Shown piece by piece: positions 338 through 21,587 of a stretch of 21,587 bases of DNA. Positions within the stretch are counted from its first letter, which is position 1; each line of letters begins with the position of its first letter. The position numbers and the translations under genes were made by a program. The notes under the pieces are model-generated. The model saw nothing but the letters and a program-made list of their open reading frames with translations, had not been told where the DNA came from and did not search any database. The DNA comes from a virus: IMG/VR virus record IMGVR_UViG_3300021961_000730, positions 1-21,587 of that record; one strand, given 5' to 3'.

Positions 338-1312
338 ATGGCTAAAGCAACAACTTTAAATGCAGCAGGGAATCGGGAACAAATTACCGATGTCCTTACA
401 CTATCGGAGCCAGAGATGACACCAGTCACTTCTGCTGCTCCCAAGAAAAAAGCAACCGCAACATTCCCTGAATGGCAAGTGGACGCACTACAGGAACCAT
501 CGTTTGGTGGTGTCGATGAAGGCAAGGACGTAGATAGCTTTGAGAATAAAGCTGTCAATCGTGTCAAGCTTGGTAACTATATCCAGAAATGGCGTAGAAC
601 CTTCCAAGTCTCTGACATCCAAGAACTTGTTGATACCGCAGGTGTCCCATCTGAGTTCGCACGTGCTCAAGCACTCGCCACCCGTGAAATTAAACGTGAC
701 GTAGAGGCAGCCGTCTGTTCTTCACAAGATCGACAACAACAAGGTGGTGCTGGCACTCCTTATAAGACCCGTGGTATTTTCCGCTGGCTAGGATTCAATG
801 GCACTGCTGGAGGCAACTACCCCTCTGATGTTCCTGCTTCACAGCAGTACACGAACTACGTTGATACTGCCGCTCTCACGGAGACTGAGTTTAATACTCT
901 GATGTCAAATATGTACTCCGAGAATGGTATGCCAAATGGCACACTCATGCTCGTTGCTTCACCTCAGATTCGCCATGATGTATCCGTGTTCTCTCGTGCC
1001 AGTGATGCGACTCTTCGTGTGACACAAGCTGCGGCAGACAAGAAGATCACTCTTAATGTTCGTCAGTATGATGGTGACTTCGGAATGGTAAATATCGTTC
1101 CTGCGTCTCTATTCTTGGATCGCACAAGTGAGTCCGCAACAGTACCTGGCGACCGAGGTCTTCTTCTGGACACTGGAAGTTATTCCTTGTTCACCCTGAA
1201 GGCTGAGTCTAGGTCTGAACTTGAGGATCAAGGCGGAGGTCGCAGAGGCTTCTGTGAGGTTATTGCTGCTCTCGGAGTTGATTCTCCAAAGGCACATGGT
1301 TTTATCTACTAA
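338..1312 (+). CDS. Major capsid protein, SU10-like (DUF5309 type)
   Basis: This 324-aa protein forms the capsid shell. The N-terminal region has the layout of the DUF5309/SU10 major capsid family: a start like GNREQITDVLTLSEPEMTPV (residues 11-30), the FPEWQVDAL stretch (43-51), a KWRRTFQVSD strand (84-93) and the helix REIKRDVEAAV (116-126). The C-terminal part is beta-rich and Gly-rich, ending in a short hydrophobic tail (HGFIY). Length is typical of the family. ATG at 338 has no clear Shine-Dalgarno, but the N-terminus fits the family and it begins 4 bases after the scaffold-like gene. Two decoration-like genes follow. The family call is from recognised sequence pattern, not a database search. 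Confidence 0.85.
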   Translation: MAKATTLNAAGNREQITDVLTLSEPEMTPVTSAAPKKKATATFPEWQVDALQEPSFGGVDEGKDVDSFENKAVNRVKLGNYIQKWRRTFQVSDIQELVDTAGVPSEFARAQALATREIKRDVEAAVCSSQDRQQQGGAGTPYKTRGIFRWLGFNGTAGGNYPSDVPASQQYTNYVDTAALTETEFNTLMSNMYSENGMPNGTLMLVASPQIRHDVSVFSRASDATLRVTQAAADKKITLNVRQYDGDFGMVNIVPASLFLDRTSESATVPGDRGLLLDTGSYSLFTLKAESRSELEDQGGGRRGFCEVIAALGVDSPKAHGFIY

Positions 1313-3740: not shown

Positions 3741-4220
3741 ATGGGAGCACAGACACTCAGTAACTTTAAGAGTCTCGTAGTAGACGTAACGCCAACACTT
3801 GACACCAACGCCTATGCACAGAACGATGTGCTGTTTAACTTCACAGAGGTAGCGTTGGGTCAGGGAGATCAAGTTAAGGGAACGATCAACGGCTTCAGTC
3901 TTCTAGATAAAGACGATAACGGAAACCAGGTCACAGTTTATGTGAGTGATAGTTCCACTGCAAGCCTTGGCTCAGTCAATAGTGCGGTAAGCATTAGTGA
4001 TGCAGATGCAGCTACCATCTTGAGTTATGTGGACACTGGAGCTACTTACGAGGACTTAATAGGAAGTCAGATCATAAAGCCTGCTGCGTTTACGCCAATT
4101 CCATTTAACGTGGAAGCAGGCAGTATTTATATTGGCGGAGTATTGCGAGGGGCTGCAACGCCAACCCATACCGCAAGTGGGATTACCATTCGTCTACACC
4201 TTACTATTGAGGGTGCATAA
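3741..4220 (+). CDS. Small virion protein, probably abundant
   Basis: A 159-aa beta-rich, acidic protein without membrane segments or cysteines. Features seen include an N-terminal VVDVTPTLDTNAYAQNDVLF stretch, a TVYVSDSSTASLG segment, and a C-terminal AASGITIRLHL-like strand (TASGITIRLHLTIEGA). The ribosome binding site is the strongest in the window, implying many copies per virion. It lies between the adaptor-like gene and the LamG adhesin and overlaps the latter by one base (TAATG). No family recognised. A tail, head-fibre or decoration subunit is the best inference. Confidence 0.55.
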   Translation: MGAQTLSNFKSLVVDVTPTLDTNAYAQNDVLFNFTEVALGQGDQVKGTINGFSLLDKDDNGNQVTVYVSDSSTASLGSVNSAVSISDADAATILSYVDTGATYEDLIGSQIIKPAAFTPIPFNVEAGSIYIGGVLRGAATPTHTASGITIRLHLTIEGA

Positions 4221-5701
4221 TGTCGCTACGCTTTACAGGCACTGCAAGGGCAGCAATAGTAGCAGCGGATATTGCTGCTGCCGCAAGTCCATTCCCTAAC
4301 ACATACTCAGTTGACTTCGACGGCACGAATGATTACATAGCAATAGATGGTGTTGCTACTGGTTATGCTAGTGACACCACAGGCAGCATAAGTGCGTGGA
4401 TTAAAATGGATGATGCTACTCCTGCTGCTGCTGAATATATTTTTTCTATATCGGACGCAAGTGGCAGTACTTTTACTTCACTTTATGTTAATCCAGAAGG
4501 TCGCCTTACTTTTGCTGTGCAAAAAACGGGAACAAATCAAGTCATTGTTAGAACCGACCCAACCGCATTTAGTGATAACACATGGTATCATGTTGCTGTT
4601 GTTCAAGACGGAGTATTGCCAGTTGTTTATATTGACGGAAGCGCACCCACTCAATCGACCTTGGTTTCCACAGACACAACAGCCTACCTAGGTGATTTGA
4701 CAGGATTGGATGTCGCTACAATCGGTGCGTTGCGATACCAAAATAGTACCTCTCTTTATTACGCAGGTCTTATTGAAGAAGTTTCTTACTTTTCCAATAT
4801 AACTTTAACAGGTGGACAGCTTTCAAGTATTTACAATAGTGGCATTCCTGCAAGCTTGACTTCATATTCACCTTCAGGTTGGTGGCGAATGGGTGATAAT
4901 AATGGCGGTACTGGAACTACCGTTACCGACCAAGGCAGCGGTGGCAATAACGGAACTTTAGTAAATGGCCCCACGTTTAGTACGGATGTTCCAGTTTTTA
5001 CAAACACGTACTCCGTAGATTTCGATAGCACGAATGACTATATTACTATTGCCAATACATTAGCCACGACATTTCAAGCCAGCTTTTCGATAGTTGCTTG
5101 GGTAAAGATGGATGGTACAGGCAGCACTAGAGCCATATTATCAATGGATAATGCGAGTTTCTATGATCGTGTAAGCTTATTTCAGAATAGCAGTGGTCAG
5201 ATAGCGATGTTCTACGCTGCTGACAATACCCAGACATCTACTTTGACCGATACTGTTTCGGGTGTAGACCTAACGGCATGGACTAATATTATTGCCGTGT
5301 TCAAGCAGAATGGTGGTAATATAGATCAAGAGATTTTTATCAACGGAACAAGTCAAGTAACTAACTCGACTGCTGTTACCATGTCTAATTACGGGAACAC
5401 AAATACTCCAGTAGCACCATATATAGGTGCAAGAAATAATAATGGCGGTTCTCCAAGCTTATATTGGAATGGAAAGATTGATGAGTTAGCAATAATTCCA
5501 AGTGCGATTAACTCCACGCAAGCCACAGCAATCTACAATAGTGGCGATCCGATTGATTTGACTACTTATTCCCCTGTCTTATGGCATCGAATGGGTGACA
5601 ATGATGGTGGGACTGGCACAACCATTACCGATCAAGGCTCAGGAGGTAATAATGGAACTCTTACTAATGGACCAACCTTTTCAACGGATATTCCAACATG
5701 A
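4220..5701 (+). CDS. Tandem LamG-like (concanavalin A-like) adhesin
   Basis: A 493-aa protein built from a 26-residue N-terminal segment (probably the virion anchor) and two tandem copies of about 233 residues. Copy 1 begins NTYSVDFDGTNDYIAI (residue 27) and copy 2 NTYSVDFDSTNDYITI (residue 262). Both contain SISAWIKMD or SIVAWVKMD strands, an SSIYNSG / TAIYNSG segment and a WWRMGDNNGGTGTT / WHRMGDNDGGTGTT segment, and end NGPTFSTD(V/I)P. These are hallmarks of LamG-like jelly-roll (laminin G 3) domains, which bind carbohydrate or mediate adhesion in phages. A role in host surface binding is inferred. It overlaps the next gene by 4 bases. Confidence 0.8.
   Translation: MSLRFTGTARAAIVAADIAAAASPFPNTYSVDFDGTNDYIAIDGVATGYASDTTGSISAWIKMDDATPAAAEYIFSISDASGSTFTSLYVNPEGRLTFAVQKTGTNQVIVRTDPTAFSDNTWYHVAVVQDGVLPVVYIDGSAPTQSTLVSTDTTAYLGDLTGLDVATIGALRYQNSTSLYYAGLIEEVSYFSNITLTGGQLSSIYNSGIPASLTSYSPSGWWRMGDNNGGTGTTVTDQGSGGNNGTLVNGPTFSTDVPVFTNTYSVDFDSTNDYITIANTLATTFQASFSIVAWVKMDGTGSTRAILSMDNASFYDRVSLFQNSSGQIAMFYAADNTQTSTLTDTVSGVDLTAWTNIIAVFKQNGGNIDQEIFINGTSQVTNSTAVTMSNYGNTNTPVAPYIGARNNNGGSPSLYWNGKIDELAIIPSAINSTQATAIYNSGDPIDLTTYSPVLWHRMGDNDGGTGTTITDQGSGGNNGTLTNGPTFSTDIPT
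4298..5697 (+). repeat. In-frame tandem duplication of a LamG-like domain
   Basis: Two coding copies, about 4298-5002 and 5003-5697, encode 235 and 232 residues that align from NTYSVDF at the start to FSTD(V/I)P at the end. The ends are the most similar; the middles have diverged, so the duplication is old at DNA level but clear at protein level. Confidence 0.75.
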
Positions 5702-5961
5702 GTGCAGAACATAAATACGCAATTTGCGACCAAGCTAAAGTTGATTCTTTAGACTCAACAAAAATCGTCGAAATACAAGACACGTTTGATTACGATGTGG
5801 TCATTGAGCCAACTCCAATGCCAGACGGGAACTACATCGTAGAGTATTGCGGCAATAAGCCATACGCATTGTACGGAACGACTGTACTCACGGAAGTGGA
5901 AGTCAAAGCACGTAGAGCGGATCTAGAAGATCCTTGGTACGTAGACCCTGACGCAATTTAG
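5698..5961 (+). CDS. Hypothetical protein, 87 aa
   Basis: A small acidic soluble protein with predicted beta strands (DYDVVIEPTPMPDGNYIVEY) and a charged C-terminal helix (TEVEVKARRADLEDPWY). Not recognised. It starts within the adhesin stop codon (ATGA overlap) and ends 4 bases before the next gene, so it is likely translated together with the adhesin. It could be an adhesin chaperone or a small tail protein, but nothing in the sequence decides this. Confidence 0.5.
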   Translation: MSAEHKYAICDQAKVDSLDSTKIVEIQDTFDYDVVIEPTPMPDGNYIVEYCGNKPYALYGTTVLTEVEVKARRADLEDPWYVDPDAI

Positions 5962-9812: not shown

Positions 9813-10126
9813 TGAGCATCGTCAGTCCAGGGCAGGCACTAGATCCCAACGCATGGGGTCGCCAGCAGATAAGTAGTTCTACCACAGAGACTATTGATAT
9901 ATCACGCTGCCCACGTATTGAGATCACTGCATCGGGCAATACGCTCTCCGTAAAGAACCAGCGGGACAACTACGAGTTGGTAGTAGCGAACATCAGCACA
10001 GGTGATGCTTTCTTAAACTTCAATATCATCCTACAGGGAACAACCTTTACCGCACCAGTCACAATGCCAGCGGGTGATGTGTACTGCTTGGTGTGGGATT
10101 CAGCACAAACAGCATTTAGGTTTTGA
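9812..10126 (+). CDS. Small virion-associated protein, unknown
   Basis: A 104-aa beta-rich protein (ETIDISRCPRIEITASGNTL, ELVVANISTGDAFLNFNIIL, then an APVTMPAGDVYCLVWD segment). The alternation of hydrophobic and polar residues suggests one small beta-sandwich. No family recognised. Start ATG overlaps the nozzle gene's TAA (TAATG). Its place between nozzle and other small structural genes suggests a tail accessory or capping protein. Confidence 0.55.
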   Translation: MSIVSPGQALDPNAWGRQQISSSTTETIDISRCPRIEITASGNTLSVKNQRDNYELVVANISTGDAFLNFNIILQGTTFTAPVTMPAGDVYCLVWDSAQTAFRF

Positions 10127-10128
10127 CA

Positions 10129-10302
10129 ATGAGTGGTAATATTATACAGACTATAGGCACGGCCTCGGATGAAAAGATCACGAAAGGCGGACAGGACTAC
10201 AGGGGAGTGGCGGATGTAGAATCCTATTTGGTGTTGAAAGAGATACTGAAACTACAAAAGGAACTCCTAGAATTTTTAAAACAACAATTTGACCAGGAAT
10301 AA
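10129..10302 (+). CDS. 57-aa protein with C-terminal coiled coil
   Basis: ATG at 10129 is two bases after the preceding stop, and the gene ends one base before the next ATG. The sequence begins MSGNIIQTIGTASDEKITKG and ends in an amphipathic Leu/Lys helix (LVLKEILKLQKELLEFLKQQ) suited to oligomerisation. An AGG at 10118-10120 may serve as a weak ribosome binding site. It fits perfectly between its neighbours, which supports it being real. Possibly a trimeric linker or an assembly factor for the following virion proteins; not recognised. Confidence 0.6.
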   Translation: MSGNIIQTIGTASDEKITKGGQDYRGVADVESYLVLKEILKLQKELLEFLKQQFDQE

Positions 10303-10303
10303 G

Positions 10304-10897
10304 ATGGCTCATATCGAAGATCCAAGCACAGGCTATAAAGCCTCAGTAACAAAACGCAACGAACTCAAGACTTTTGCTGTTACCGAATCCGAATCCGAAT
10401 TTGCTAACACAAAAGGCGATGTCTATAATATTAACAGCGGAGAGATAACAAGCCTCTCTGCTGGAGATGCCTCGTTGATTTATTTTTATAACGACGAAGA
10501 CGTGGACTATGTTCTGAGTGCGGTTGCTGTAGGCATTAGGGGGTTCACTGGCTTGTCTGATATGGCGACAGTTACGATCATTCGTAATCCAACGGGGGGT
10601 GATTTAATAAGTGATGCTACTGCTGTATCAATCAATAGTAACAGCAACTTCGGTTCATCAAGAACAACCAGCACAGGAACACTAGCCTATAAAGGCAAAG
10701 CGGCTGGAACCATTTCTGGCGGAGCAGATCATGCCATTATTTACATTGGTAACAACTCAAGGGTTTTTGCCACTATCCCTGTCGAGATCCCAAAGGGTAG
10801 TGCCATTGCTGTTAAGATTGACTCTGATGCTACTGCTGGTTCTGCGTATTGTGCTTTAGTCGGTTACTTTAAGGACGCCACAAGGGAGAATAGTTAA
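10304..10897 (+). CDS. Virion protein with DPxTGxxAxV N-terminal motif (copy A)
   Basis: The ATG at 10304 gives 197 aa and is preceded by AGGA at 10294-10297; a longer frame from TTG at 10289 is less likely. The N-terminus MAHIEDPSTGYKASVTKRNE followed by LKTFAVTESESEFANTKGDVYNIN matches a motif common at the start of phage surface proteins in marine phages. The remainder is beta-rich and Gly/Ser/Ala-rich (TVTIIRNPTGGDLI, ATIPVEIPKGSAIAVKIDSD). The downstream gene begins with a related motif. No database family name is known to me. A head- or tail-surface subunit is inferred. Confidence 0.6.
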   Translation: MAHIEDPSTGYKASVTKRNELKTFAVTESESEFANTKGDVYNINSGEITSLSAGDASLIYFYNDEDVDYVLSAVAVGIRGFTGLSDMATVTIIRNPTGGDLISDATAVSINSNSNFGSSRTTSTGTLAYKGKAAGTISGGADHAIIYIGNNSRVFATIPVEIPKGSAIAVKIDSDATAGSAYCALVGYFKDATRENS

Positions 10898-11541
10898 TGC
10901 CTCAAGGTGCGGTCAAAGCCTATATAGTTGACCCTACTACTGGAAACAATGCGAGGGTTCAGGATGAGGGCGTACTTAATGTCGTTACGCATCCCCATCC
11001 TCCAAAGGGTGAGACAATTGATCCGCTTCCATTTCGTCAATACCTGACCGATGACGGCACATCTTCTGGTGACAATGATATGCTGGTTAATGGCAGCACA
11101 AATAATGTGGATTACTATGTGCAAGCCAATGGAGACTATGATATATACATTGGTCGGATAGATATTCTGATTGCCGATGCCAGTGCCGTATTAAATAAGT
11201 TTGGAAACATCACCGCACTAACCAACGGAGTGCTATTCCAGCACGAGAGTCAGCGTGATGGCATTACTGTAATCCATGAGGGATTGAAAAGTAACTTTGA
11301 TTTCGTGCGATTGGCTGGAGGTAAACCGTCATTCGGTGATGGAGCAGGGGCGTTTCGTGCAGGCAACATGTTTGGTACTTCGGAGGGATACTTGCCTTGT
11401 GTGGACTTTGATGAGATCTTTAACCTTCAGTGGGGTTTAAGACTCCGCAAGGGAACCAATGATCGCATTGTGCTGAGGGTTAGAGATGATGTGACAGGGA
11501 TTGATGCGTTTAACGCACAGTGCTATGGCATCAAGTTTTAA
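10897..11541 (+). CDS. Virion protein with DPxTGxxAxV N-terminal motif (copy B)
   Basis: A 214-aa protein whose start (VDPTTGNNARVQDEGVLNVV) parallels the preceding gene's (EDPSTGYKASVTKRNELKTF). The middle reads as a beta domain (DYDIYIGRIDILIADASAVL), and the C-terminus ends RVRDDVTGIDAFNAQCYGIKF-like (IDAFNAQCYGIKF). It starts in the previous stop (TAATG) and is the last gene before the second terminator. Related N-termini with different bodies suggest a shared docking site with different exposed domains. Role inferred from context. Confidence 0.6.
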   Translation: MPQGAVKAYIVDPTTGNNARVQDEGVLNVVTHPHPPKGETIDPLPFRQYLTDDGTSSGDNDMLVNGSTNNVDYYVQANGDYDIYIGRIDILIADASAVLNKFGNITALTNGVLFQHESQRDGITVIHEGLKSNFDFVRLAGGKPSFGDGAGAFRAGNMFGTSEGYLPCVDFDEIFNLQWGLRLRKGTNDRIVLRVRDDVTGIDAFNAQCYGIKF

Positions 11542-11551
11542 TACTTGCACA

Positions 11552-11602
11552 AATGCCTTAGCTACGTAAGTATGCAGATCACTTTCACTGCCGCAGGGCA
11601 TT
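11552..11602 (+). other. Possible folded leader/trailer RNA upstream of terminator 2
   Basis: AATGCC (11552-11557) can pair with GGCATT (11597-11602) and enclose two very short hairpins (TTA...TAA around GCTACG, and CTG-CCG-CAG). It lies in the 72-base non-coding stretch between the stop at 11541 and the terminator stem at 11614. Pairing is short, and this may be chance. No tRNA or known riboswitch is recognised. Confidence 0.2.
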
Positions 11603-11613
11603 AAACTGTATAG

Positions 11614-11646
11614 GCTAATCACTGAGTAATAGAGGTTAGCTTTTTT
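11614..11646 (+). terminator. Intrinsic (Rho-independent) terminator
   Basis: GCTAATCACT (11614-11623) pairs with AGAGGTTAGC (11631-11640) with one T-G wobble and one A-A mismatch around a 7-base loop (GAGTAAT), followed by TTTTTT (11641-11646). It closes the small virion-protein block. As with the first terminator, the next ATG follows at once (11652), leaving no space for a ribosome binding site or a promoter. Confidence 0.82.
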
Positions 11647-11651
11647 ATTTC

Positions 11652-12113
11652 ATGAGTACAATCATCCCAGATTATTGCGATACGCCCGATGAGGTAGCAA
11701 AGAACCCAGAGGCCAAGAAATATATTGCTCTTTGTGCCAATGGAGATGCACAAGCTTACGACTTTTGTTGGAAATTTTGGTGCTTCACGCATTGTATTGA
11801 TGACCTTGTGGATAAAGATAAATTTGCTCCCCCTGAAGTTATTGTTAAGAGTTTTGTTGGTTTTATAGACGCATTATCAATGAATGCTTTTTATACTAAA
11901 TGGAAGTTTGCCCTATACCCATTCATGATACAAGCGTGTGCAAGGTGGTTAGATGGGGATGCATTGTCTAATTCTGAAAATGAAGAGGATCGCATCAGGG
12001 GTGAGGTTGTTAGATGTGGAGATTTAGAGTTATACTTGCATGTGGCATACATTCAAGGTGGATGGGATTACATGCGTTCAATTAAAGATTTAAGAAAATA
12101 CGACAGGAGATAA
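11652..12113 (+). CDS. Helical protein with DDxxD-like motif, unknown function
   Basis: A 153-aa, mainly helical, aromatic- and Cys-rich protein. The most conserved-looking block is AYDFCWKFWCFTHCIDDLVD (residues about 35-54), where H and DDxxD stand close together on predicted helices; a second block is RWLDGDALSNSENEEDRIRG and a third GEVVRCGDLELYLHVAYIQG. Acidic helical motifs of this kind bind divalent metal in isoprenoid synthase-like and all-alpha NTP pyrophosphatase folds, but I do not recognise a specific family. It lacks a Shine-Dalgarno and follows a terminator, so low expression is expected. The ejection-protein operon begins 5 bases downstream. Confidence 0.55.
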   Translation: MSTIIPDYCDTPDEVAKNPEAKKYIALCANGDAQAYDFCWKFWCFTHCIDDLVDKDKFAPPEVIVKSFVGFIDALSMNAFYTKWKFALYPFMIQACARWLDGDALSNSENEEDRIRGEVVRCGDLELYLHVAYIQGGWDYMRSIKDLRKYDRR

Positions 12114-12117
12114 TAGG

Positions 12118-13695
12118 ATGTACGGAGGAGGAGATGCACCAGAACAAAAAGATTATGGCGAAGCAACAGCGGACACCATACAGGCACAATATGAATTTAT
12201 AACTGGCACTGGTCGGTTTGAGGGCAAAGGCTTACTGGATATGCTCCCTGCCGAGATGCAGGCAAGGGGTGAATATCAAGATGCTGAAATGGATCTATTA
12301 ACTCGTCAATTACTTGGCGAAATAAAACGCACTGATGAACAAGGAAGGTACGTTAGCGGTCAGCGATACCTAGATGCAGGTGGTCAAGAGATTTCAGATG
12401 TTCAACAAATTACTGACGAGTCAGATAGGGGTCGCCTATGGTTACAAGTTCGACCTGACCTGCAAGCTGCATTTGATAATAATGGGGCGGGGCAAGGCAA
12501 AACTGAAGCTAGGCAAATTGCAATCATTAAACAGCAGGGGGGTACTGCGGAGGATTTCGCCAACTGGCATAGGGATAGAGCACAGACTGGTGCATATGGA
12601 TCAACAGAGCAGAATCGAGCTAACCAAGTTCCTGAAGTTGGTGCGTACTATAACCCTGCATCCATTCAAGCTGGCGTATTTAGCGATGATATTTCTGACA
12701 CACTTACCCCAGAAGATGTTTACAGTATTAAGACTGATGCCGAAGGGAATGTACTTGCCAATGCGATATATGATCGTGAAGGCGGTCTGTTAGATCTATA
12801 TGGAGGTAACACAAAGGTTAAGCAATTCAACCAAGCCAAGTATCAGGAAAAACTTGATGAAGGCATGTCCGAGGAGGAGGCTCGTGACGCTGCAACGACT
12901 TGGGGTACGGCAGGCTTTGACCCAGAGACGGGACAGTTTAAGGGGTTGATCCCCATGATGCAGGAGGCTCAAGCCTACATTGCATCGCAGCAACGGGAGT
13001 CAGACATCTCTGATGTTGAGGCATTTGGTGGTAGAGCTACAGAAGCTATTCGCAGTCAGGGTGACATCCAGGAAGTCCTTGATAATATTGAGAGGCAGGT
13101 TGCCGCTAACGAGGCTGCGGTAGATCCGCTACGCCAGCAGTTACTTACAAGGGCTAATGAACTTGCGAACGCACAGTTGTCCGATAGAGAGAAGCAGCAA
13201 CTGAAAGAGTCAATACGAGGACGATGGGCGGCAAGTGGGGGTATACGAGATCGGGGTGCTGACTATGATGAAATTAAAACAATCATAGAAGAGGATTGGA
13301 ACAGGGGAATGCAAGGTGCGTTGGCAGGGGGTCAATTAATGGCAGGGGAGTCTGCAATGCAAACCAATCTACTTGGTCAGCAAATGACGAGGATGGGAGT
13401 AGAGCAGGCGACATCAGCAGATCCCTTCATGGCAATTCTTGGTAGACCATCGCAAGCAGCACCAACCGCTCAAAGCGTACTAAGCACAGGTGCAGGACTT
13501 ATGGCTCAATCTGGGCCAGAGTATATTAACCCAGAGGCAGGACTTCCATACATCAGTAACCAGTACACTAACGAGGCAAACATGTATGCCGCAAATCAGG
13601 CGAAATGGGGTAACATAATTGGTGGTACTCTTGGTGGTGTTGGAGATATACTGAGTGGAGACTGGTTTAAGTACGAAAAGAAGGGAACAGTATAA
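12118..13695 (+). CDS. Internal virion (ejection) protein 1
   Basis: A 525-aa hydrophilic, Gln/Ala-rich protein with no signal peptide. It begins MYGGGDAPEQKDYGEATADT. A long helical middle (NIERQVAANEAAVDPLRQQL, then SDREKQQLKESIRGRWAASG with a following IRDRGADYDEI) and a C-terminal ADPFMAILGRPSQAAPTAQS segment resemble the first ejection protein of short-tailed phages. AGGAGA at 12105-12110 is a good ribosome binding site. It is the first of three genes joined by one-base TAATG overlaps, the typical three-gene ejection block. The C-terminus (IIGGTLGGVGDILSGDWF) has a Gly-rich hydrophobic patch. Confidence 0.65.
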   Translation: MYGGGDAPEQKDYGEATADTIQAQYEFITGTGRFEGKGLLDMLPAEMQARGEYQDAEMDLLTRQLLGEIKRTDEQGRYVSGQRYLDAGGQEISDVQQITDESDRGRLWLQVRPDLQAAFDNNGAGQGKTEARQIAIIKQQGGTAEDFANWHRDRAQTGAYGSTEQNRANQVPEVGAYYNPASIQAGVFSDDISDTLTPEDVYSIKTDAEGNVLANAIYDREGGLLDLYGGNTKVKQFNQAKYQEKLDEGMSEEEARDAATTWGTAGFDPETGQFKGLIPMMQEAQAYIASQQRESDISDVEAFGGRATEAIRSQGDIQEVLDNIERQVAANEAAVDPLRQQLLTRANELANAQLSDREKQQLKESIRGRWAASGGIRDRGADYDEIKTIIEEDWNRGMQGALAGGQLMAGESAMQTNLLGQQMTRMGVEQATSADPFMAILGRPSQAAPTAQSVLSTGAGLMAQSGPEYINPEAGLPYISNQYTNEANMYAANQAKWGNIIGGTLGGVGDILSGDWFKYEKKGTV

Positions 13696-14852
13696 TGGCA
13701 CAGAGATTATTTTCAGGACAATACGGCCCACTTAGCCAAGTGGATACACGCCCCATCGTGCAGGCAGGTCAGGCATGGGGGCAAGCCATACAAGGCACAC
13801 TTGAGAACGTGGGCAAGGCTATTGAGAAGCACCAACTCAATAAGCAGTGGGAGGCAGCAGAACCTAAGTTGCAAGCATACGCTGACTCACTTAACCTGCC
13901 GCCAGATCAACGTGACATAATCATTAATTCAATCAAGAGGGATAAGGATGCGATGTCCAATGGTTATACTGCAATTACTAAAGCAGCAGAACAAGCGACT
14001 GCACAAAAGGGTGTTCAACTCGCTCAGCAGCAGATCCGCCAAACAATGGAAGATAGGAAGAATCAGCAATTAACACAAAAGATTTCCGACCTTGAGCAGT
14101 CTGCCTCTTTCTATATGTCGCAAGGTAAAGAAGTTCCTGAGTCTATACGTGAAGCGTTGTATCGCCACAACCTCAATAAAGGTGGATCACTTGAAGCAAG
14201 TGCTGGACGCATTATGCAAGGCTCACGGAATATCAAGCAAGCACAGGAGGTAGCAGAATTAAATAGGCAAGGCAAGAAAGCGGATATAGATTACAAGAAA
14301 GGACTTACTGGTGCTAATGCATTGCAAAGCACAATCAATCAAATGAAGCTGATGCAATCCTTGAATCCAAGCGTAAAGCCTTTCGTGGATCAATTAGAGA
14401 ATGCTCAAAAGGAATATGATGCGGTTGTTAATACTAAGTCTATTCCCGTAAAAGGTTATGGAACCTTTAGTCTTGCTGAGTTGAAAGCTCTTGAGAATGA
14501 GGATGAGAAGAAGTTCAAGAAGGTAATGAAGATTCTTCAAGACCCTAACACTAACACGAAATACCTAGAGGCTGTGGCGGCAGAACAGGAAATGGCTAGA
14601 CGCAACCAAGAGTTGATGGGTGGTATCAATGTTATGGTGGATATACCTGATGACAAGGATAGTGGTAGACCAGAGGATGCTCCCGCACCTACGCCTACTC
14701 CTCCTTCCTCCGTTCGCCCCCCTGCTGTTCCTTCACCTTATGCTCCAGTAATGCCGCCAGTGACTAATCGCCCACCTGCATTCCCTCCGCTACATAAGGA
14801 CTTAATGCAAAGTCCTCCAGTCGAGGGTCTTAAAAGCATGCTTAATCTATAA
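13695..14852 (+). CDS. Internal virion (ejection) protein 2
   Basis: A 385-aa protein that is almost wholly helical and Gln/Lys-rich through residue about 320 (AQKGVQLAQQQIRQTMEDRK; KISDLEQSASFYMSQGKE), then a Pro-rich tail (APAPTPTPPSSVRPPAVPSP onward) and a final short helix LKSMLNL. Long helices and a flexible tail fit a core or ejection protein that passes through the portal. It starts in the stop of gene 1 and ends in the start of gene 3 of the block (both TAATG). No enzymatic motif is seen. Confidence 0.62.
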   Translation: MAQRLFSGQYGPLSQVDTRPIVQAGQAWGQAIQGTLENVGKAIEKHQLNKQWEAAEPKLQAYADSLNLPPDQRDIIINSIKRDKDAMSNGYTAITKAAEQATAQKGVQLAQQQIRQTMEDRKNQQLTQKISDLEQSASFYMSQGKEVPESIREALYRHNLNKGGSLEASAGRIMQGSRNIKQAQEVAELNRQGKKADIDYKKGLTGANALQSTINQMKLMQSLNPSVKPFVDQLENAQKEYDAVVNTKSIPVKGYGTFSLAELKALENEDEKKFKKVMKILQDPNTNTKYLEAVAAEQEMARRNQELMGGINVMVDIPDDKDSGRPEDAPAPTPTPPSSVRPPAVPSPYAPVMPPVTNRPPAFPPLHKDLMQSPPVEGLKSMLNL

Positions 14853-17800
14853 TGGCAATTGAACAAGTCAGTCTTCAGGAAGCTCTCGAGAAGGGGTACA
14901 ATATTATTGGCCCCGTAGAGGCACAACGCACCACTGATCCAACATGGTTGGAAAACGCAACGCTAATCGCTGCCGAGGTCGCCCCTAGTATAGCGGGTGG
15001 TATCATTGGTTCGTTTGCTTCTCCTGCTGGTACAGCCGCAGGTGGGGCGATAGGTGCAGGCATTGGCAACCTTTGGGCACAGAACCTACGCAGGGATATG
15101 GGACTCTCTGAAGGTATCGGCAAGGGTGAGTTAATGGCTGCGATAGGTACGGGTGCAATCCCTCTTGGAAACCTCGCTAAAGCAGGCACAATGACTCGTG
15201 CTGCATTACGTGGTGCTCAAGGTAGTACGCTTGCTGGTGCTGAACTGTATGCCCGTACCATAATTGACGAAGGCAGAGCACCAACGCAGGACGAGGTAAA
15301 GAACGCACTGCTCTGGGGTGGAGTAATTGGCGGTGGGCTTGGATATGCAGAGGCAAAGTTCTTTAAGGATACTACGGGAGCCGACATCAAGAAAGATATG
15401 ACGCCCGATGAGGTGGATAAAGCTATTTCAATTAAAGATAGCTCAACCATTGAGGAAGCTACTGCAAAGAGGGAACAGCTACAAGATGTATTCTATGAAG
15501 AGTTCAATAAGCTAAAGCCCGAAGATTGGCAACAAGCAGTAGGAGGTAGTGACTTAAAGAAACTTGGTGCTGCTTTACGTAGTGAAGAATTAGGTGATCC
15601 CACTGGAGTGCGAAGGCGTAGTGATCTTGAGTTGCAAGCGTTAAGAGATCAATATCAGCAGCAAGAGAAAATTACTGTTAGGGATTTAATTCCAGAAAAA
15701 GTGAGGGGCATGTATAATGAGATGCAAGCTTTGCAGCAGGGCTTGAAGGAGCGTCAGGTTACAGCATGGGATGACATCAACAAAGATGCCGAGTTCCTTA
15801 ATGAGTTAGTGGATTACAGTTCACCTGCTGCTGTTGCACAAAAGAACCTTGGGACACAGCGTACAGCACAAGAGGGACAACCCACTACACCTACTCAACC
15901 AGGAATTGAATTACAACCCAACCTTGCGACAACCTTAAAGGATGCCATGACTGGTATCTCGGACGACCTCTCTAGTGACATAGGTAGACTGAGTCATGTC
16001 CAGAAGGAGATCGCTAAGTTGGAAGCGATTAAGGCAGATAAGTCGAGGGGCTTCACGAAGTATCATAAGCGGAAGCTTGCCGACCTTCGCAGTCAAGAGA
16101 ATGATGTCACAAGCAGCCTGCCATCAGACAACGCATTTGATGGATACACAGAACAATTTAATAAGATCCAAGCACTTGAGAAAGATGTAGATCAATTAGA
16201 CTACGCCATCCAACAAGCCCGACCCGAACAACGTGGAAAGATTGTTGATGAGCGTAACATGAAATTGAAGGAGTTAAGAAGTGCTAGACTGGATATTCCT
16301 AAAGAAGAGCAGGCAGCAAAAGATTTCTTCACCAGCAAGAAGTTCCAGCAGTATGTAGCTTCTGGTGCATTGAGTGCTGGAGGTGCAGCAGGATTGGCAC
16401 AAGCCATAGCGGGAGCCGAGGGCGATGAGGATAATCTGTACAAGGCAGACATGAGCCACATCTTCGGTATAGGACTACTGGCATTACTGGCAGGTGCTGC
16501 AACTAAGGGTAGATGGCGAGGCAGTGCAAAGAATGTCAATCGCCTAGAGAAGCCTAAGATCAAGAATGGTAAGATCGCCAGAGAGTCAGAGTCTCCTGAG
16601 ATGACGGAGAGTAAGGTTCAGCAAGGGCTACAAGATTTAGAGAAGGGAAGATATAGCAAGACTGCGGTATGGAAGGACGAGGCAAAGAAGCTAATCAGTA
16701 ACGCCATTGATCCACTCTCCCGTGTACTCAAGAACGTAGCTACTCCCATTGCGGAAGCTTTCAAGAAGCATGAGTACAGCGTAATCAATCGCCAAAGCGA
16801 ACTCAAGAAACGTGTTCACCGCTTCTGGGTTCCAATGCAGAACGTCCTTACCAAGAAGGGATTGCTTGCCGAGTTTAATACAGCCGCACGTAATCAAGAT
16901 TGGAAGTCCATTCAGAAGTATATGGACACTTACCACGCTGAGTTGAATGCCGAGATCAAGAAGGTTGCCAAGAAAGCTGGCGACAAGGATTGGCAGAGTG
17001 CTACATTTGATGGCAAGGTACGTGATGAGGCAAAGGATATCCTGGATGAGATCTTTGTAGAGGCACGAGAAGATGCCTCGATGGATATTGGATACATCAA
17101 CTCCTACATTCCCCGTCTACTTAAGAAGGGTGCTTACAAGCAGATGCGTAAGTACATGGATGAGAATGGTATGTCACAGGAGATCAATGATCTTGATCGG
17201 GCGTTGGAAGAATATGCAGCTCGTATGGATGTGCCAGTAGAAGCACTAAGTGACATGGAAAAGGTAGAGGTTGCTAGTCGAGTGCTAGGAACTAAACCTC
17301 GTGGCACAAAGACCAGTCACGAGAAGTCACGGGTATTTGAGCAGGTTGATGATAGGCTTGCAGACTTTTATGAGGATACTGTCACGAGTGTTAGCCACTA
17401 CATTGACTCTATGGTGGAGCGTATTGAGTCTCGTAAGTTCTTGGGACAGCAGGTCAGTAAGGCAAATGAACGTGCAGGCATTCGCACTGTTGATCCTGGT
17501 GGAGATGTATTGCAGAATATTAACGATAGATTTGCTGGAGTGGGTGCGAATGTACGCATTGACGATACACTTGCTGGAAAGCTTGCGGAAACTTTTGGGG
17601 ATAACTTTGGGGTAAAGAGTCAGGACGACTTGCGTAAACTTCAGTATGTAATCCAGAAGAGATTCAATGGGGAGTCTACCAATACAATCATCAACGACCT
17701 GAAGACCGCCAACTACTTCGGAACCATTGCCAACTTTGGCACAACCCTTACTCAGCTAATGGATCTAGTGAATGGGTTCTGGTTTGCGGGTGCTCCCAAT

Positions 17801-18718
17801 ATGATGAAGGCAGCACTCAACAAACAAAGGAGGGATTGGTTTAATGACATTGGGCTTGATCGCAATAACTCCATTGACTTCGGTGCTACATCAGGGGGAT
17901 TCAATAAAGCACTGGACAAGGTGCTGACCGCAACAGGGTTCAATCAATTAGATAAGTGGTCAAAGAATACATCACTCGAAGCACTGTATCAGAAGTTTCG
18001 CAAGAAGGCTAAGGCTAATCCTGATAAACTTAGAACAGAGTTGATTAGTAAGTACGGGGATGACGGCAAGCAGATGGTTGATGACCTGCTTGCTTACGAT
18101 GGTAGTGTTGCTAAGGATGCAGCACCCAAGAGTATTCAAAGCTTACTCTTCAGTGAGGCATCAGACTTCTTGCCACTAAGTAGACTAGAGATGCCAGGTA
18201 TGGCGACAGGTCCGATTGCTCCCATCTTCTACCAACTTAAAACCTACATGGTAAAGCAGGCAGACATCTATCGGGAGATTGCTAATGGTGATATTGCTAA
18301 AGGCTTTGAGTTAATGAAGCAAGGTAAGTTTGACCAGGCCGCAAAGAAGGCGGCTCCCGCTATGGGTAAACTTGCGGCTTATGGAGGATTGCTTGCGGCT
18401 GCTGGTATGCCCGTGGATATGGTGAAGGATTGGATGTATGGCAGACCTATTGAGATGGATGAGACTGTGCAGAACAACTTGCTTCGTATAGCCTTAATCA
18501 ATCGCTACCATGTATATAACGCCAAGCGTGAAGGCATTGGCAAGACTGCCCTAGAGTACATGATGCCTGCCACGACGATGCTTGACCGCACAAGTAAAGA
18601 TATGTGGGCGTTTGCATCAGGTGAAGATATTAAGGGTCACTCCTTACAGGGTACAATCCTTGACCTAGTGTATTGGCATCATGATATGCTTGGTGGTTAC
18701 GAGAAAGCTAATCGCTAA
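14852..18718 (+). CDS. Large internal virion (ejection) protein 3
   Basis: At 1288 aa this is the largest protein in the window. It has an N-terminal Gly/Ala-rich hydrophobic zone with glycine-zipper spacing (about residues 38-78: VAPSIAGGIIGSFASPAGTA, then AGGAIGAGIGNLW), a second hydrophobic zone near 505-550 (SAGGAAGLAQAIAG; IFGIGLLALLAGAA) and a third near 1170-1190 (KLAAYGGLLAAAGMPVDMV). Long charged helices lie between. This suits a protein injected into the host to form or line a trans-envelope channel, like T7 gp16-type proteins. I see no lysozyme-type or protease motif. It ends with a 4-base overlap against the opposite-strand gene. Confidence 0.7.
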   Translation: MAIEQVSLQEALEKGYNIIGPVEAQRTTDPTWLENATLIAAEVAPSIAGGIIGSFASPAGTAAGGAIGAGIGNLWAQNLRRDMGLSEGIGKGELMAAIGTGAIPLGNLAKAGTMTRAALRGAQGSTLAGAELYARTIIDEGRAPTQDEVKNALLWGGVIGGGLGYAEAKFFKDTTGADIKKDMTPDEVDKAISIKDSSTIEEATAKREQLQDVFYEEFNKLKPEDWQQAVGGSDLKKLGAALRSEELGDPTGVRRRSDLELQALRDQYQQQEKITVRDLIPEKVRGMYNEMQALQQGLKERQVTAWDDINKDAEFLNELVDYSSPAAVAQKNLGTQRTAQEGQPTTPTQPGIELQPNLATTLKDAMTGISDDLSSDIGRLSHVQKEIAKLEAIKADKSRGFTKYHKRKLADLRSQENDVTSSLPSDNAFDGYTEQFNKIQALEKDVDQLDYAIQQARPEQRGKIVDERNMKLKELRSARLDIPKEEQAAKDFFTSKKFQQYVASGALSAGGAAGLAQAIAGAEGDEDNLYKADMSHIFGIGLLALLAGAATKGRWRGSAKNVNRLEKPKIKNGKIARESESPEMTESKVQQGLQDLEKGRYSKTAVWKDEAKKLISNAIDPLSRVLKNVATPIAEAFKKHEYSVINRQSELKKRVHRFWVPMQNVLTKKGLLAEFNTAARNQDWKSIQKYMDTYHAELNAEIKKVAKKAGDKDWQSATFDGKVRDEAKDILDEIFVEAREDASMDIGYINSYIPRLLKKGAYKQMRKYMDENGMSQEINDLDRALEEYAARMDVPVEALSDMEKVEVASRVLGTKPRGTKTSHEKSRVFEQVDDRLADFYEDTVTSVSHYIDSMVERIESRKFLGQQVSKANERAGIRTVDPGGDVLQNINDRFAGVGANVRIDDTLAGKLAETFGDNFGVKSQDDLRKLQYVIQKRFNGESTNTIINDLKTANYFGTIANFGTTLTQLMDLVNGFWFAGAPNMMKAALNKQRRDWFNDIGLDRNNSIDFGATSGGFNKALDKVLTATGFNQLDKWSKNTSLEALYQKFRKKAKANPDKLRTELISKYGDDGKQMVDDLLAYDGSVAKDAAPKSIQSLLFSEASDFLPLSRLEMPGMATGPIAPIFYQLKTYMVKQADIYREIANGDIAKGFELMKQGKFDQAAKKAAPAMGKLAAYGGLLAAAGMPVDMVKDWMYGRPIEMDETVQNNLLRIALINRYHVYNAKREGIGKTALEYMMPATTMLDRTSKDMWAFASGEDIKGHSLQGTILDLVYWHHDMLGGYEKANR

Positions 18719-18942
18719 CATCCCCTGACTGCATGGATGTCTTCGATTTCTCTAATAATCTTATTGCCTCCCGCAGCAAACACCTCACCCGATTGGGAAT
18801 GGATGCTAAAATATTCCGCCCCGTCGATATTGAATGTGGGAGTAGGGAATGTTCCAGTAGGCCCGAAGTTCCCGTGAATGATGTAGAGTGCGGGTCCATT
18901 CTCTATCCTATAGGTTAGGGTTTGTGTGTAGGGTCTAGTCAT
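18715..18942 (-). CDS. Hypothetical protein, 75 aa
   Basis: The last gene of the - strand operon. The 75-aa chain starts MTRPYTQTLTYRIENG and has beta-like segments (ALYIIHGNFGPTGTFPTPTF; a FNIDGAEYFSIH block) and a C-terminal helix (GGNKIIREIEDIHAV). A GGGAGG sequence 10-15 bases upstream of the ATG is a fair ribosome binding site. An opposite-strand frame of 61 aa lies in the same place, but it has no ribosome binding site or partner. Not recognised. It begins two bases after the 47-aa gene stop and its own stop codon overlaps the ejection-protein stop. Confidence 0.5.
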   Translation of the reverse strand: MTRPYTQTLTYRIENGPALYIIHGNFGPTGTFPTPTFNIDGAEYFSIHSQSGEVFAAGGNKIIREIEDIHAVRGC

Positions 18943-18944
18943 AA

Positions 18945-19088
18945 TTATTCTTCCTCCCTTGGATTGAGTAGTTGGTAAGCGAGGTTTCCGAGGATACGCA
19001 TGAACTGTTCCCGTTCAAGAGGGTGTAGTTTGTCAGCGGGTTTCCATTTAAGGATCTCGTCTTGGATTTGTTTAAGTTCTGGTGTCAT
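18945..19088 (-). CDS. 47-aa helical protein
   Basis: The ATG at 19088 overlaps the TGA of the upstream gene (ATGA), and the stop lies at 18945, two bases before the next ATG. The sequence starts MTPELKQIQDEILKWKPADK and ends in REEE. It is highly charged and wholly helical with no membrane segment, and may form a small helix pair (LEREQFMRILGNLAYQLL). It fits exactly between its two neighbours. Function unknown; it may act with the diphosphohydrolase-like protein. Confidence 0.55.
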   Translation of the reverse strand: MTPELKQIQDEILKWKPADKLHPLEREQFMRILGNLAYQLLNPREEE

Positions 19089-19882
19089 GACTCGCCCTCC
19101 GTTACTTGTGTGAACTGGTCAAAACTACCTCCGAACGCCTCCAGTTCAGATTCATGCCACCTGTCTGTAAATGACGTACCATCGCTTATGTTGATTAACG
19201 CAAATTGAGTACTCATAAGGCAGCAGAGAAGATAAGTGTTGCCATAGCGTGTCCAACGTGTGCCGACTTGAGGCTCTGATTGTGTTGCTTTCTCCCTTTC
19301 GTTAAGTACGTCCAGCATAATCATGGCGGTGGCTCCTATATGTGCCCAGTGGGATCGTTGTGATTCTGGATCTAGTGCTTCACCATTCATCATGGCGGTG
19401 ACATGTCGTAGTATAGCCCCGTAGTAGGTGGAGTCTTGGATAGAGTCAGTATTGCCACGCCAATTATATACGCCATATTTGTCAGCACCGAGTTTGAGCA
19501 CATGTGCAATCTCCTGCATGGCGGCAGGTGGTAGTAGTTGCAGGGGTGGCTTGGTGGTGGATGCCTGTTGCTTAGGGTCGAGGTTCCCTAATTCGGGATG
19601 CTCACCTTCCCTATTTTGACGTTCCTTCCTCCACTGGTCTAGGTATCCATAGAAGTAGTTGCACTTGGATCGCCAGATGTCGTCAGGGCAAGAGCCTTGT
19701 GGGGACCATTCTAAATCTGACTCACAGATAAACCAGCACCCATGTGGCCCGCCTCCTTCATCCCATAGTATTGCGCCTTCTCGTTTTTGTATATCGCCAC
19801 CAATCTCATTTGGCAGCAAGGCGTACTCCTCTTGTGTAAGTGGTTCCAGTTTAAGTAGTGGGTTTTTCCATTCTGTGTTCAT
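19085..19882 (-). CDS. dATP/dGTP diphosphohydrolase-like (DUF5664) fusion protein
   Basis: A 265-aa protein with three parts. Residues 1-95 are a less common Trp/Cys-containing region (EGAILWDEGGGPHGCWFICE). Residues about 102-196 (KPPLQLLPPAAMQEIAHVLK, GADKYGVYNWRGN, AILRHVTAMMNGEALDPESQ, HWAHIGATAMIML) match the dATP/dGTP diphosphohydrolase N-terminal family (DUF5664, PF18909), whose phage members include nucleotide pyrophosphatases that feed modified-base pathways. Residues about 205-261 (VGTRWTRYGNTYLLC, FALINISDGTSFTDRW) match a small module repeated in other phage proteins. Coupled by ATGA overlaps on both sides. Activity in this fusion is inferred; many DUF5664 proteins are untested. 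Confidence 0.75.
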   Translation of the reverse strand: MNTEWKNPLLKLEPLTQEEYALLPNEIGGDIQKREGAILWDEGGGPHGCWFICESDLEWSPQGSCPDDIWRSKCNYFYGYLDQWRKERQNREGEHPELGNLDPKQQASTTKPPLQLLPPAAMQEIAHVLKLGADKYGVYNWRGNTDSIQDSTYYGAILRHVTAMMNGEALDPESQRSHWAHIGATAMIMLDVLNEREKATQSEPQVGTRWTRYGNTYLLCCLMSTQFALINISDGTSFTDRWHESELEAFGGSFDQFTQVTEGES

Positions 19883-20721
19883 AGTTCTTGTGTGTGTTGG
19901 TTTAGTCGTTGTTTAATCATTCCGTAATTATTTACACCTTCGGGGACTTTAATATCAGGATTTAGTATAAGTCGGTTTTTCTTAAATGGCTTGTAGTTTA
20001 CATGGTGATGCCACCGCCCATACTTTTTTGTTACTCTCGCAACATCTGGGTGCTGATCCACTAAGGATTGTGCGAACTCAAGGCGATTATTAGTTTCAGC
20101 GTAAACAGTGTCAGTGTTCCCGCCCTTCATCCTCATTGTCGTTACCTTGCCGCATAGAAACGCATTAAAAAGTATAGTGCATTCATTTAGCTTAAGAACC
20201 CTTAGTGATAAGTCTGTGTCCTCATTAAACCTGCCTCTCCATCGAAATGGCAAGTTATTGCGAATAAGAATACATGAGTAAATGCGTGTGTTTAAGTAGT
20301 ACGGAGGTACTGCATCGGTAGATTTACAAAAAGAATAGTAGTTCATTCCTGATAATCCAACATTAGTAAAGCGATCAGTGAAGTCTTCACATGCTCGAAA
20401 GGTGGAATCGCACCTTACCTCAAGCTTATCATTAAGATGCAACCGATTGAACGCCTCGATGTTATCGTCTAAAATCCAGTGCCGCTCATGCCCACGCCTT
20501 ATACTGTCCTCCCACACCCAGTTTCGAGCGGGTATTGAGCCTTGGCCTAAGTTTGAAAATGGCAAGTCCACAAGCTTTGATTCGTCTATGCTTTTAGCAT
20601 ACTCTATGTGCTCCTGTGGCTCAATAACCACCTTATAACTCACGCCCATTCGATCCAGCGAGCGAGCTGTAATGCAGTTACTTGGTCGCCCTTTTGAAAT
20701 TATATAGACTGGGTATTTCAT
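19879..20721 (-). CDS. TET-associated glycosyltransferase (TAGT)
   Basis: A 280-aa protein. ATG at 20721 (MKYPVYIISKGR) is chosen over the frame's earlier start at 20775 because it overlaps the upstream TGA (ATGA) and fits the family's N-terminus. Motifs in order: YPVYIISKGR (3-12), a GQGSIPARNWVWE stretch (59-71), the acidic HWILDDNI (81-88) that likely binds metal and nucleotide-sugar, TRIYSCILI (145-153), the WRGRFNEDTDLSLR block (161-174) and MKGGNTD (198-204). This is the pattern of TAGT proteins, encoded by phages with TET/JBP dioxygenases and linked to glycosylation of 5-hydroxymethylcytosine in DNA. Sugar and exact product are unknown. A TET gene is expected elsewhere in the genome. 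Confidence 0.85.
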   Translation of the reverse strand: MKYPVYIISKGRPSNCITARSLDRMGVSYKVVIEPQEHIEYAKSIDESKLVDLPFSNLGQGSIPARNWVWEDSIRRGHERHWILDDNIEAFNRLHLNDKLEVRCDSTFRACEDFTDRFTNVGLSGMNYYSFCKSTDAVPPYYLNTRIYSCILIRNNLPFRWRGRFNEDTDLSLRVLKLNECTILFNAFLCGKVTTMRMKGGNTDTVYAETNNRLEFAQSLVDQHPDVARVTKKYGRWHHHVNYKPFKKNRLILNPDIKVPEGVNNYGMIKQRLNQHTQEL

Positions 20722-20948
20722 TCCTTTACCCATACCTCTTTGCACTCCCTTCGATGCGGCTTGAATGGATGCCATGTGCTTTGCGTTAAGTGTGTTAGCT
20801 TTTGACCAATCATTTCAGAAAACTCCTGTAAGTCTTCTTCACTCTCAAATCGAAAGATAATCTTAGCGTAAGGCTCTTGCTTAGTCTGGATAAACTCTGG
20901 CATTCCTTCCCAGAAGTCTTCGTCCTGTATAAAACTCTCCTGCTTCAT
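20718..20948 (-). CDS. Small conserved protein next to TAGT
   Basis: A 76-aa acidic protein: an N-terminal helix (DEDFWEGMPEFIQTKQEP), a strand and helix block (YAKIIFRFESEEDLQEFSEM) and a loop near the end (GQKLTHLTQSTWHPFKP). The alternating strand-helix order suggests a small alpha/beta fold of ferredoxin-like size. Proteins with this MPEF...FESEEDLQEF...IGQKLT layout recur beside TAGT genes in phage genomes as far as I remember. AAAGGAC sits upstream of ATG 20948, and the stop overlaps TAGT's start. It may be a TAGT partner, or bind DNA or the modified base; this is inference. Confidence 0.65.
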   Translation of the reverse strand: MKQESFIQDEDFWEGMPEFIQTKQEPYAKIIFRFESEEDLQEFSEMIGQKLTHLTQSTWHPFKPHRRECKEVWVKE

Positions 20949-20970
20949 TCTTGTCCTTTCAAGTCGTTGG

Positions 20971-21587
20971 TTATTTCAGTGTTGATGTTGCTCCGTTAAA
21001 AGTAAGTTCCGCTTTACCTTCCTGCCCGTGTCGGTTCTTGGCAATCTTCAAGTTACGTTTGGTCGGGTCGCTATGCTTGTAGATGAACATGACTGTATCT
21101 GCGTCCTGTTCAATACTTCCTGACTCTCTAAGGTCAGACAGTTTAGGTTCAGCAGTCTCGTCAGTATTGCGGTTCATCTGTGAGAGGGTGATGCCTTGTG
21201 TCTGTGTGTCTTTGAATAAGCACTTCAGGTCACGGGACATTTCAGCTACTTGTTGCTCTCTTGAGGCATGTCGATTCAGGCTCTTGATAAGTTGCAGGTA
21301 GTCGATGATACATAGGGTGTTGCCGTGTTTGGCAATGTCCCTGCGGTGTTGTGATGCAACCTTATCGACAGTGGTAGTGTGAGTGTGTGCGATAAATAAG
21401 GGTTTGTCGGCTAGCCATGCCCTAGCTTGCTCCATCTTCTGAAAGTCTTCTTCTGTCAGGAAGCCGTCCCTAGCTCGGTTCATGTCCACACCTGAGCGAT
21501 TCGCAACCATCTTGGCGATGAGTTGTTCGGGTGACATCTCAAGGGAGTGGATGCGTACTGGAATGCCTTGAGATAGGTTGTTGATTG
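20971..21587 (-). CDS. Replicative DNA helicase, DnaB-type, C-terminal part (5' end outside window)
   Basis: The frame is open to the window edge, so the first visible residues (INNLSQGIPVRIHSLEMSPE) belong to a longer RecA-fold helicase; the Walker A motif lies outside. Visible motifs are SLEMSPEQLIAKMV, the Walker B-like strand LCIIDYLQLI, the SQMNR block, KLSDLRESGSIEQDAD and the KNRHGQ arginine-finger segment. These are diagnostic of DnaB-family helicases such as phage replicative helicases. It unwinds DNA at the phage replication fork. It is the most upstream visible gene of the - strand operon, with 22 bases before the 76-aa gene. Confidence 0.9.
   Translation of the reverse strand, partial: INNLSQGIPVRIHSLEMSPEQLIAKMVANRSGVDMNRARDGFLTEEDFQKMEQARAWLADKPLFIAHTHTTTVDKVASQHRRDIAKHGNTLCIIDYLQLIKSLNRHASREQQVAEMSRDLKCLFKDTQTQGITLSQMNRNTDETAEPKLSDLRESGSIEQDADTVMFIYKHSDPTKRNLKIAKNRHGQEGKAELTFNGATSTLK

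Follow-up and report, generated by a model that had tools for sequence, protein, structure and literature searches.

Described TAGT enzymes and the window locus

The TAGT family of glycosyltransferases (Pfam PF20691) includes an enzyme of phage T6, a beta-glucosyl-HMC-alpha-glucosyltransferase, which attaches a second glucose to glucosylated hydroxymethylcytosine (hmC) in DNA (PMC13216743, PMC13390438). The T6 gene overlaps that of dCMP hydroxymethylase, and no GMPEF domain (described below) is found in the neighbouring ORFs. In the Nonlabens phage P12024L, the TAGT known as gp27 has a TET gene and a methyltransferase gene as neighbours; the methyltransferase (L101, 4752-5387) belongs to the N6/N4 type rather than to C5. 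That TAGT contexts vary is shown also by Pelagiphages, where a TAGT-like gene adjoins a thymine-hypermodification cluster (PMC9599517). In a 2026 study, 288 of 753 phage genomes carried a TAGT in the absence of alpha- and beta-glucosyltransferases, the role of the enzyme being left open (PMC13216743).

Here we analyze a TAGT gene found in a stretch of viral DNA of 21,587 nucleotides (IMG/VR record IMGVR_UViG_3300021961_000730), henceforth the window. The carrier is a tailed phage, as it encodes a major capsid protein of the SU10_MCP type. Relevant features are the following:

338-1312, plus strand: major capsid protein (SU10_MCP; PF17236, E 9.3e-48)
19085-19882, minus strand: dATP/dGTP diphosphohydrolase-like protein, third gene of the coupled unit (PF18909, E 1.1e-24)
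19879-20721, minus strand: TAGT-family GT-A glycosyltransferase of 280 aa (PF20691, phrog_842, AlphaFold2 model, invariant motifs)
20718-20948, minus strand: GMPEF-domain partner protein of 76 aa, whose stop overlaps the TAGT start (ATGA), identified by domain linkage and junction sequence
20971-21587, minus strand: 3' part of a DnaB-like helicase gene, the upstream gene of the operon (PF03796, E 3.1e-50)

The start of the PF18909 gene likewise overlaps the TAGT stop by ATGA (junction ACTATGAAC).

The window enzyme is a conserved member of PF20691

The TAGT ORF is intact and encodes 280 aa if read from the ATG at 20721; an alternative in-frame ATG at 20775 would yield 298 aa. Its product covers the PF20691 profile from end to end (1-205 of 205) with an E of 3.1e-44 and 151.8 bits, the curated cut-off being 27.5 bits, and also matches phrog_842 (E 4.3e-40). 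A preliminary description made from the sequence had placed a TAGT at 19879-20721, had given PF20691 as its Pfam number and had proposed a profile search as a check; the full-length match bears out the identification, and both the coordinates and the accession are correct. The motifs quoted there (YPVYIISKGR, HWILDDNI, RFNEDTDLSLR and MKGGNTD) are all present in the protein, and the DDN, NEDTD and GGN residues are invariant across 30 homologues. An AlphaFold2 model (pLDDT 88.9, pTM 0.88) has GT-A glycosyltransferases as its closest PDB structures (Z about 14). Hence, besides its full-length profile match, the protein combines a predicted GT-A fold with an invariant DxD-like motif (DDN), as expected of a PF20691 member. 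Synonymous change is saturated, while non-synonymous differences make up a proportion of 0.15-0.23, equivalent to a dN of 0.17-0.28 after Jukes-Cantor correction; the gene is therefore under purifying selection. It is a conserved enzyme rather than a chance ORF.

Comparison with described relatives places the window enzyme at a distance from both reference systems. Its identity is 44-54% with TAGTs from phages of Aeromonas, Vibrio, Tenacibaculum and Pectobacterium, and drops to 22% with P12024L gp27, with which it shares the Pfam family, the DD-motif and a small tailed phage as carrier. Identity to the T6 enzyme is 16%, although both belong to PF20691 (the T6 protein with 38 bits) and to the GT-A class; for the T6 enzyme, the DNA substrate is known. 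In a tree of TAGT sequences, the clade of the window lies apart from both P12024L and T6, with a basal support of only 0.58. Judged by its sequence, the window protein is outside the TET-linked lineage; the family owes its name to other members, which occur in a TET context. The automatic label ‘beta-glucosyl-HMC-alpha-glucosyltransferase’ is spreading to enzymes of phages with no visible hydroxymethylcytosine route.

A partner domain, GMPEF, accompanies the window clade

The preliminary description was right about the TAGT, proposed a TET pathway that is not supported (see below), and overlooked a conserved partner gene upstream. In the window, that gene (20948-20718) overlaps the TAGT start and so shows the trait by which a GMPEF/ParB-TAGT pair is recognized here, adjacency or fusion of GMPEF to TAGT. 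Its 76-aa product matched no Pfam or PHROG family, and carries a domain, GMPEF, with the pattern WxGMPEF...KIIxRFxxEEDLxxFAxLIGQKLTxKTKSIWxP. Observations on its linkage to TAGT can be summarized as follows:

(i). Because the scans were seeded with motifs of the clade itself, linkage counts describe the window clade and not the whole of PF20691: GMPEF is adjacent or fused to TAGT in 78 of 79 IMG/VR loci (55 upstream, 21 downstream, 2 fused) and in 45 of 50 loci from prokaryote genomes, with weak matches (E up to 0.01) behind a few of the latter. The sole IMG/VR exception begins at a contig edge. The five prokaryote loci without GMPEF comprise two that start at contig edges, two TAGT fragments and one that is seemingly complete (L232).

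(ii). When GMPEF was used as bait, a TAGT was present at 1.5 kb or less in all 76 loci with enough flanking sequence among the best 80 GMPEF hits.

(iii). Among named phages, GMPEF is fused to TAGT in seven and adjacent in one. Fusions found in Aeromonas phages 65 and Aeh1, Vibrio phages 1.076.O and 1.124.O and Tenacibaculum phage PTm1 belong to the TAGT clade of the window (46-54% identity) and have the same partner domain; unlike in the window, both parts are in one polypeptide, and the large phages also carry thymidylate synthase (TS)-family genes. In contrast with the window, P12024L showed no GMPEF, and its gp27 has neither a GMPEF nor a ParB partner.

Additional genes are sometimes found within these loci. 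A SAM methyltransferase-like gene lies exactly between GMPEF and TAGT in L005, L007-L012, L016 and L057, and a radical-SAM/SPASM gene occupies the same place in L062/L063. In L072-L074 and L076-L080, a second, divergent TAGT paralogue follows the GMPEF gene (PF20691 E 6.7e-29 in L072).

GMPEF-TAGT is a distinct two-component variant of the known TAGT family. No report of a GMPEF or ParB partner of TAGT was found in the literature searched, which most subscription papers lie outside. Many TAGT enzymes that appear ‘solitary’ (compare the 288 genomes mentioned above) thus gain a consistent partner.

ParB-like proteins and a sister pair in other viruses

At many loci, GMPEF forms the C-terminal domain of a longer protein (200-240 aa) that resembles ParB/Srx and whose gene overlaps the TAGT start. 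No ParB_N domain was found in the window partner, a stand-alone form of 76 aa, while ParB_N is present at other loci. At one of them (L205), ParB_N, GMPEF and TAGT are joined in a single polypeptide, the ParB_N match (23.7 bits) falling just under the Pfam cut-off of 26.3. Matches of the ParB part are to ParB-like proteins of phages and to the N-terminal region of phrog_498, a family named DNA methyltransferase; this is the chief ground for regarding DNA as the probable substrate.

The ParB part found in Pantoea could be traced to E. coli prophages. There, the terminase gene is closely preceded by two overlapping genes, one ParB-like and the next a PF20691 member (E 1.7e-35); among 5,426 complete genomes of E. 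coli, 885 contain at least 80% of this pair. The same ParB-TAGT order was observed in the Lactobacillus phages jlb1 and phiLdb, adjoining the terminase; in the Nocardia phage NTR1, beside the terminase, the gene that precedes TAGT being annotated as hypothetical but ParB-like in translation; and in HHTV-2, an archaeal virus. A search for TAGT in plasmids found none. What the E. coli, jlb1 and HHTV-2 pairs have in common with the window is a PF20691 enzyme and an overlapping ParB-like gene. They differ in that their TAGTs form a sister clade (support 0.999) and their ParB proteins have another C-terminal domain. As the C-terminus of the jlb1 ParB shows no similarity to GMPEF, partner domains appear to have been exchanged around a constant combination of ParB and TAGT. 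These findings indicate tractable carriers of the pair in E. coli and Lactobacillus.

The phiLdb TAGT gene is broken into two ORFs that overlap (L257, 848-1713) and is perhaps inactivated or frameshifted.

A composite genome of the window phage

The window record is a fragment, as both of its ends fall within genes, and the partner search was therefore impossible for the preliminary description. Overlapping contigs close into a composite map of about 39.8 kb. One contig (L002) is 99.9% identical to window positions 10103-21587 and extends 5 kb beyond, the full helicase ORF (420 aa) being contained in it; another contig from the same sample (L086) joins L002 by a 127-bp overlap. A search of viral contigs with the left-end sequence of the window gave no match, and the closing overlap was supplied by G049, a contig of 18,397 bases that spans the L086 region and overlaps the window on the left (150 bp, 98%) and on the right (49 bp, 86%). 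Because contigs from more than one sample were joined, the composite represents a population genome, not a single clone.

Eighteen Pfam families were matched among 57 proteins chosen from the composite, including capsid, DnaB, RusA, Erf, exonuclease and Laminin_G, and several small ORFs belong to no known family. No dioxygenase or DNA methyltransferase was found among the 57 proteins using Pfam, PHROGs being searched as well. Beyond the window, L086 encodes a probable terminase large subunit (3834-5939), named from its sequence and place, with an intein-like splicing domain (PF14890, E 1.5e-4, below the Pfam cut-off).

Known hydroxymethylcytosine routes are absent

The preliminary description had proposed that cytosine is methylated at C5, oxidized by a TET-like dioxygenase and then glycosylated, and had suggested looking for a TET/JBP dioxygenase and a C5-cytosine methyltransferase in the rest of the genome. 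When this search was made on the composite of approximately 39.8 kb, neither was found: six-frame analysis of its pieces detected no Tet_JBP (PF12851), C5-methylase (PF00145) or TS/dCMP-hydroxymethylase (PF00303) gene. The positive controls worked: Tet_JBP was recovered in P12024L (E 2.8e-29), with a weak match in Nigel as well, and in T6 the dCMP hydroxymethylase was detected adjoining the TAGT. The known routes to hydroxymethylcytosine are absent from the window phage. The position of the window TAGT outside the TET-linked lineage also speaks against the pathway, while a sugar-modified genome, which the same description foresaw, is plausible.

Tet_JBP was absent from all 50 TAGT-bearing records searched, and a similar set of 50 contained one record with a TS-family gene and three with a C5-methylase match, one of them weak; as many records are fragments, these are minimum counts. 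In IMG/VR, only three TET-linked TAGT relatives were found, too few to compare rates. A large clade of TAGT enzymes, that of the window, has no detectable link with TET. Searches of jlb1, HHTV-2, phiLdb and NTR1, and of an incomplete record of an E. coli phage, likewise detected no Tet_JBP, TS-family or C5-methylase gene. TS-family genes are present in each of the five large named phages whose GMPEF and TAGT are fused (Aeh1, 65, PTm1, Kuja and POP12), so that a hydroxymethyl route is possible in them.

A proposed two-component glycosyltransferase and its alternatives

A tentative interpretation, to which we give about even chances, is that the window pair constitutes a two-component phage glycosyltransferase that places a sugar on phage DNA, using an acceptor of non-TET origin. 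TAGT would be the catalytic subunit, given its GT-A fold and its DxD-like DDN motif, with a UDP-sugar as the expected donor. The 76-aa GMPEF protein would act as its dedicated adaptor, a role played elsewhere, we suppose, by a ParB/Srx-like protein with a C-terminal domain or by GMPEF fused to TAGT. Because the AlphaFold2 model of GMPEF is poor (pTM 0.45), the adaptor role rests on genome context. TAGT and GMPEF may form a complex; its most likely target is phage DNA, which the added sugar might shield from host nucleases. The acceptor group could be intrinsic, host-made or produced by a phage enzyme that escapes recognition. By analogy, the action of the T6 TAGT on DNA points to DNA as the substrate. 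One cannot ignore, on the other side, that a glycosyltransferase devoid of a hydroxyl-making partner is odd for DNA modification, that the GT-A fold also includes protein glycosyltransferases, and that the composite comes from different samples and harbors several small ORFs of no known family.

Two explanations appeal to described cytosine chemistry. That the phage glucosylates 5hmC made from 5-methylcytosine by a TET-like dioxygenase is suggested by the family name and by the existence of a real TET-TAGT-methyltransferase cluster in P12024L; yet with neither enzyme in the composite, no TET and only three C5-methylase matches in the records surveyed, and a TET-linked relative that is so divergent and lacks GMPEF, we regard this explanation as extremely improbable. 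Hardly better is the prospect of a T-even route, in which a dCMP hydroxymethylase would provide 5hmC and TAGT would attach the sugar. The adjoining T6 genes and the TS-family genes of the large fusion phages are in its favor, but no TS-family gene exists in the window phage or in the other IMG/VR TAGT contigs tested, nor in jlb1, HHTV-2, phiLdb, NTR1 and the partial E. coli phage record, and the T6 enzyme is a distant relative.

The main rivals of the two-component DNA reading are a host-made acceptor and a protein substrate, each of which we consider rather unlikely. In the former, the phage would bring the terminal glycosyltransferase only, and the host would provide the acceptor base or nucleotide. 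Viruses that possess DpdA only, and use the preQ0 pathway of the host, set a precedent (PMC8651126). Translational coupling of a nucleotide diphosphohydrolase to TAGT fits this view, and so does the apparent lack of a DNA polymerase gene in the phage, which suggests reliance on host supply. The hosts involved are, however, as distant as E. coli, Lactobacillus and Haloarcula, and we know of no host pathway for hydroxylated DNA bases across them. As for the latter, the pair might glycosylate a protein (of the virion, the terminase or the host) instead of DNA: the nearest PDB folds include peptide GalNAc-transferases and a protein O-mannose GlcNAc-transferase, one RefSeq record labels the E. coli homologue ‘GREB1-related’, and the pair adjoins the terminase in prophages. 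Against this possibility, the characterized T6 relative acts on DNA (PMC13216743), and similarity links the ParB partner to the N-terminal region of phrog_498, the phage family that bears the name DNA methyltransferase.

Returning to the two-component DNA reading, a further speculation, doubtful in our view, is that ParB/GMPEF-TAGT is a self-contained DNA glycosylation machine whose ParB/Srx or GMPEF partner presents or activates an acceptor other than a hydroxymethylpyrimidine, giving rise to an undescribed sugar modification of DNA. If so, phages of bacteria and archaea, and about one sixth of complete E. coli genomes, would carry it.

Genes coupled to the pair

Genes for nucleotide pyrophosphohydrolases recur beside TAGT. 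MazG-like genes are located at 50 bp or less from TAGT in L071-L081, and another small MazG-like family is present in L014-L026. Coupling of PF18909 or MazG-like genes to TAGT perhaps links control of the nucleotide pool to modification. A nucleotide pyrophosphohydrolase was also considered as a third universal part of the system and discarded, as PF18909, the MazG-like genes and the other small MazG-like family are each confined to a few lineages.

Elsewhere in the window, an ORF of 493 aa (4220-5701) contains a direct repeat of approximately 165 bp, with copies at 4829-4993 and 5531-5695 that are 72% identical.
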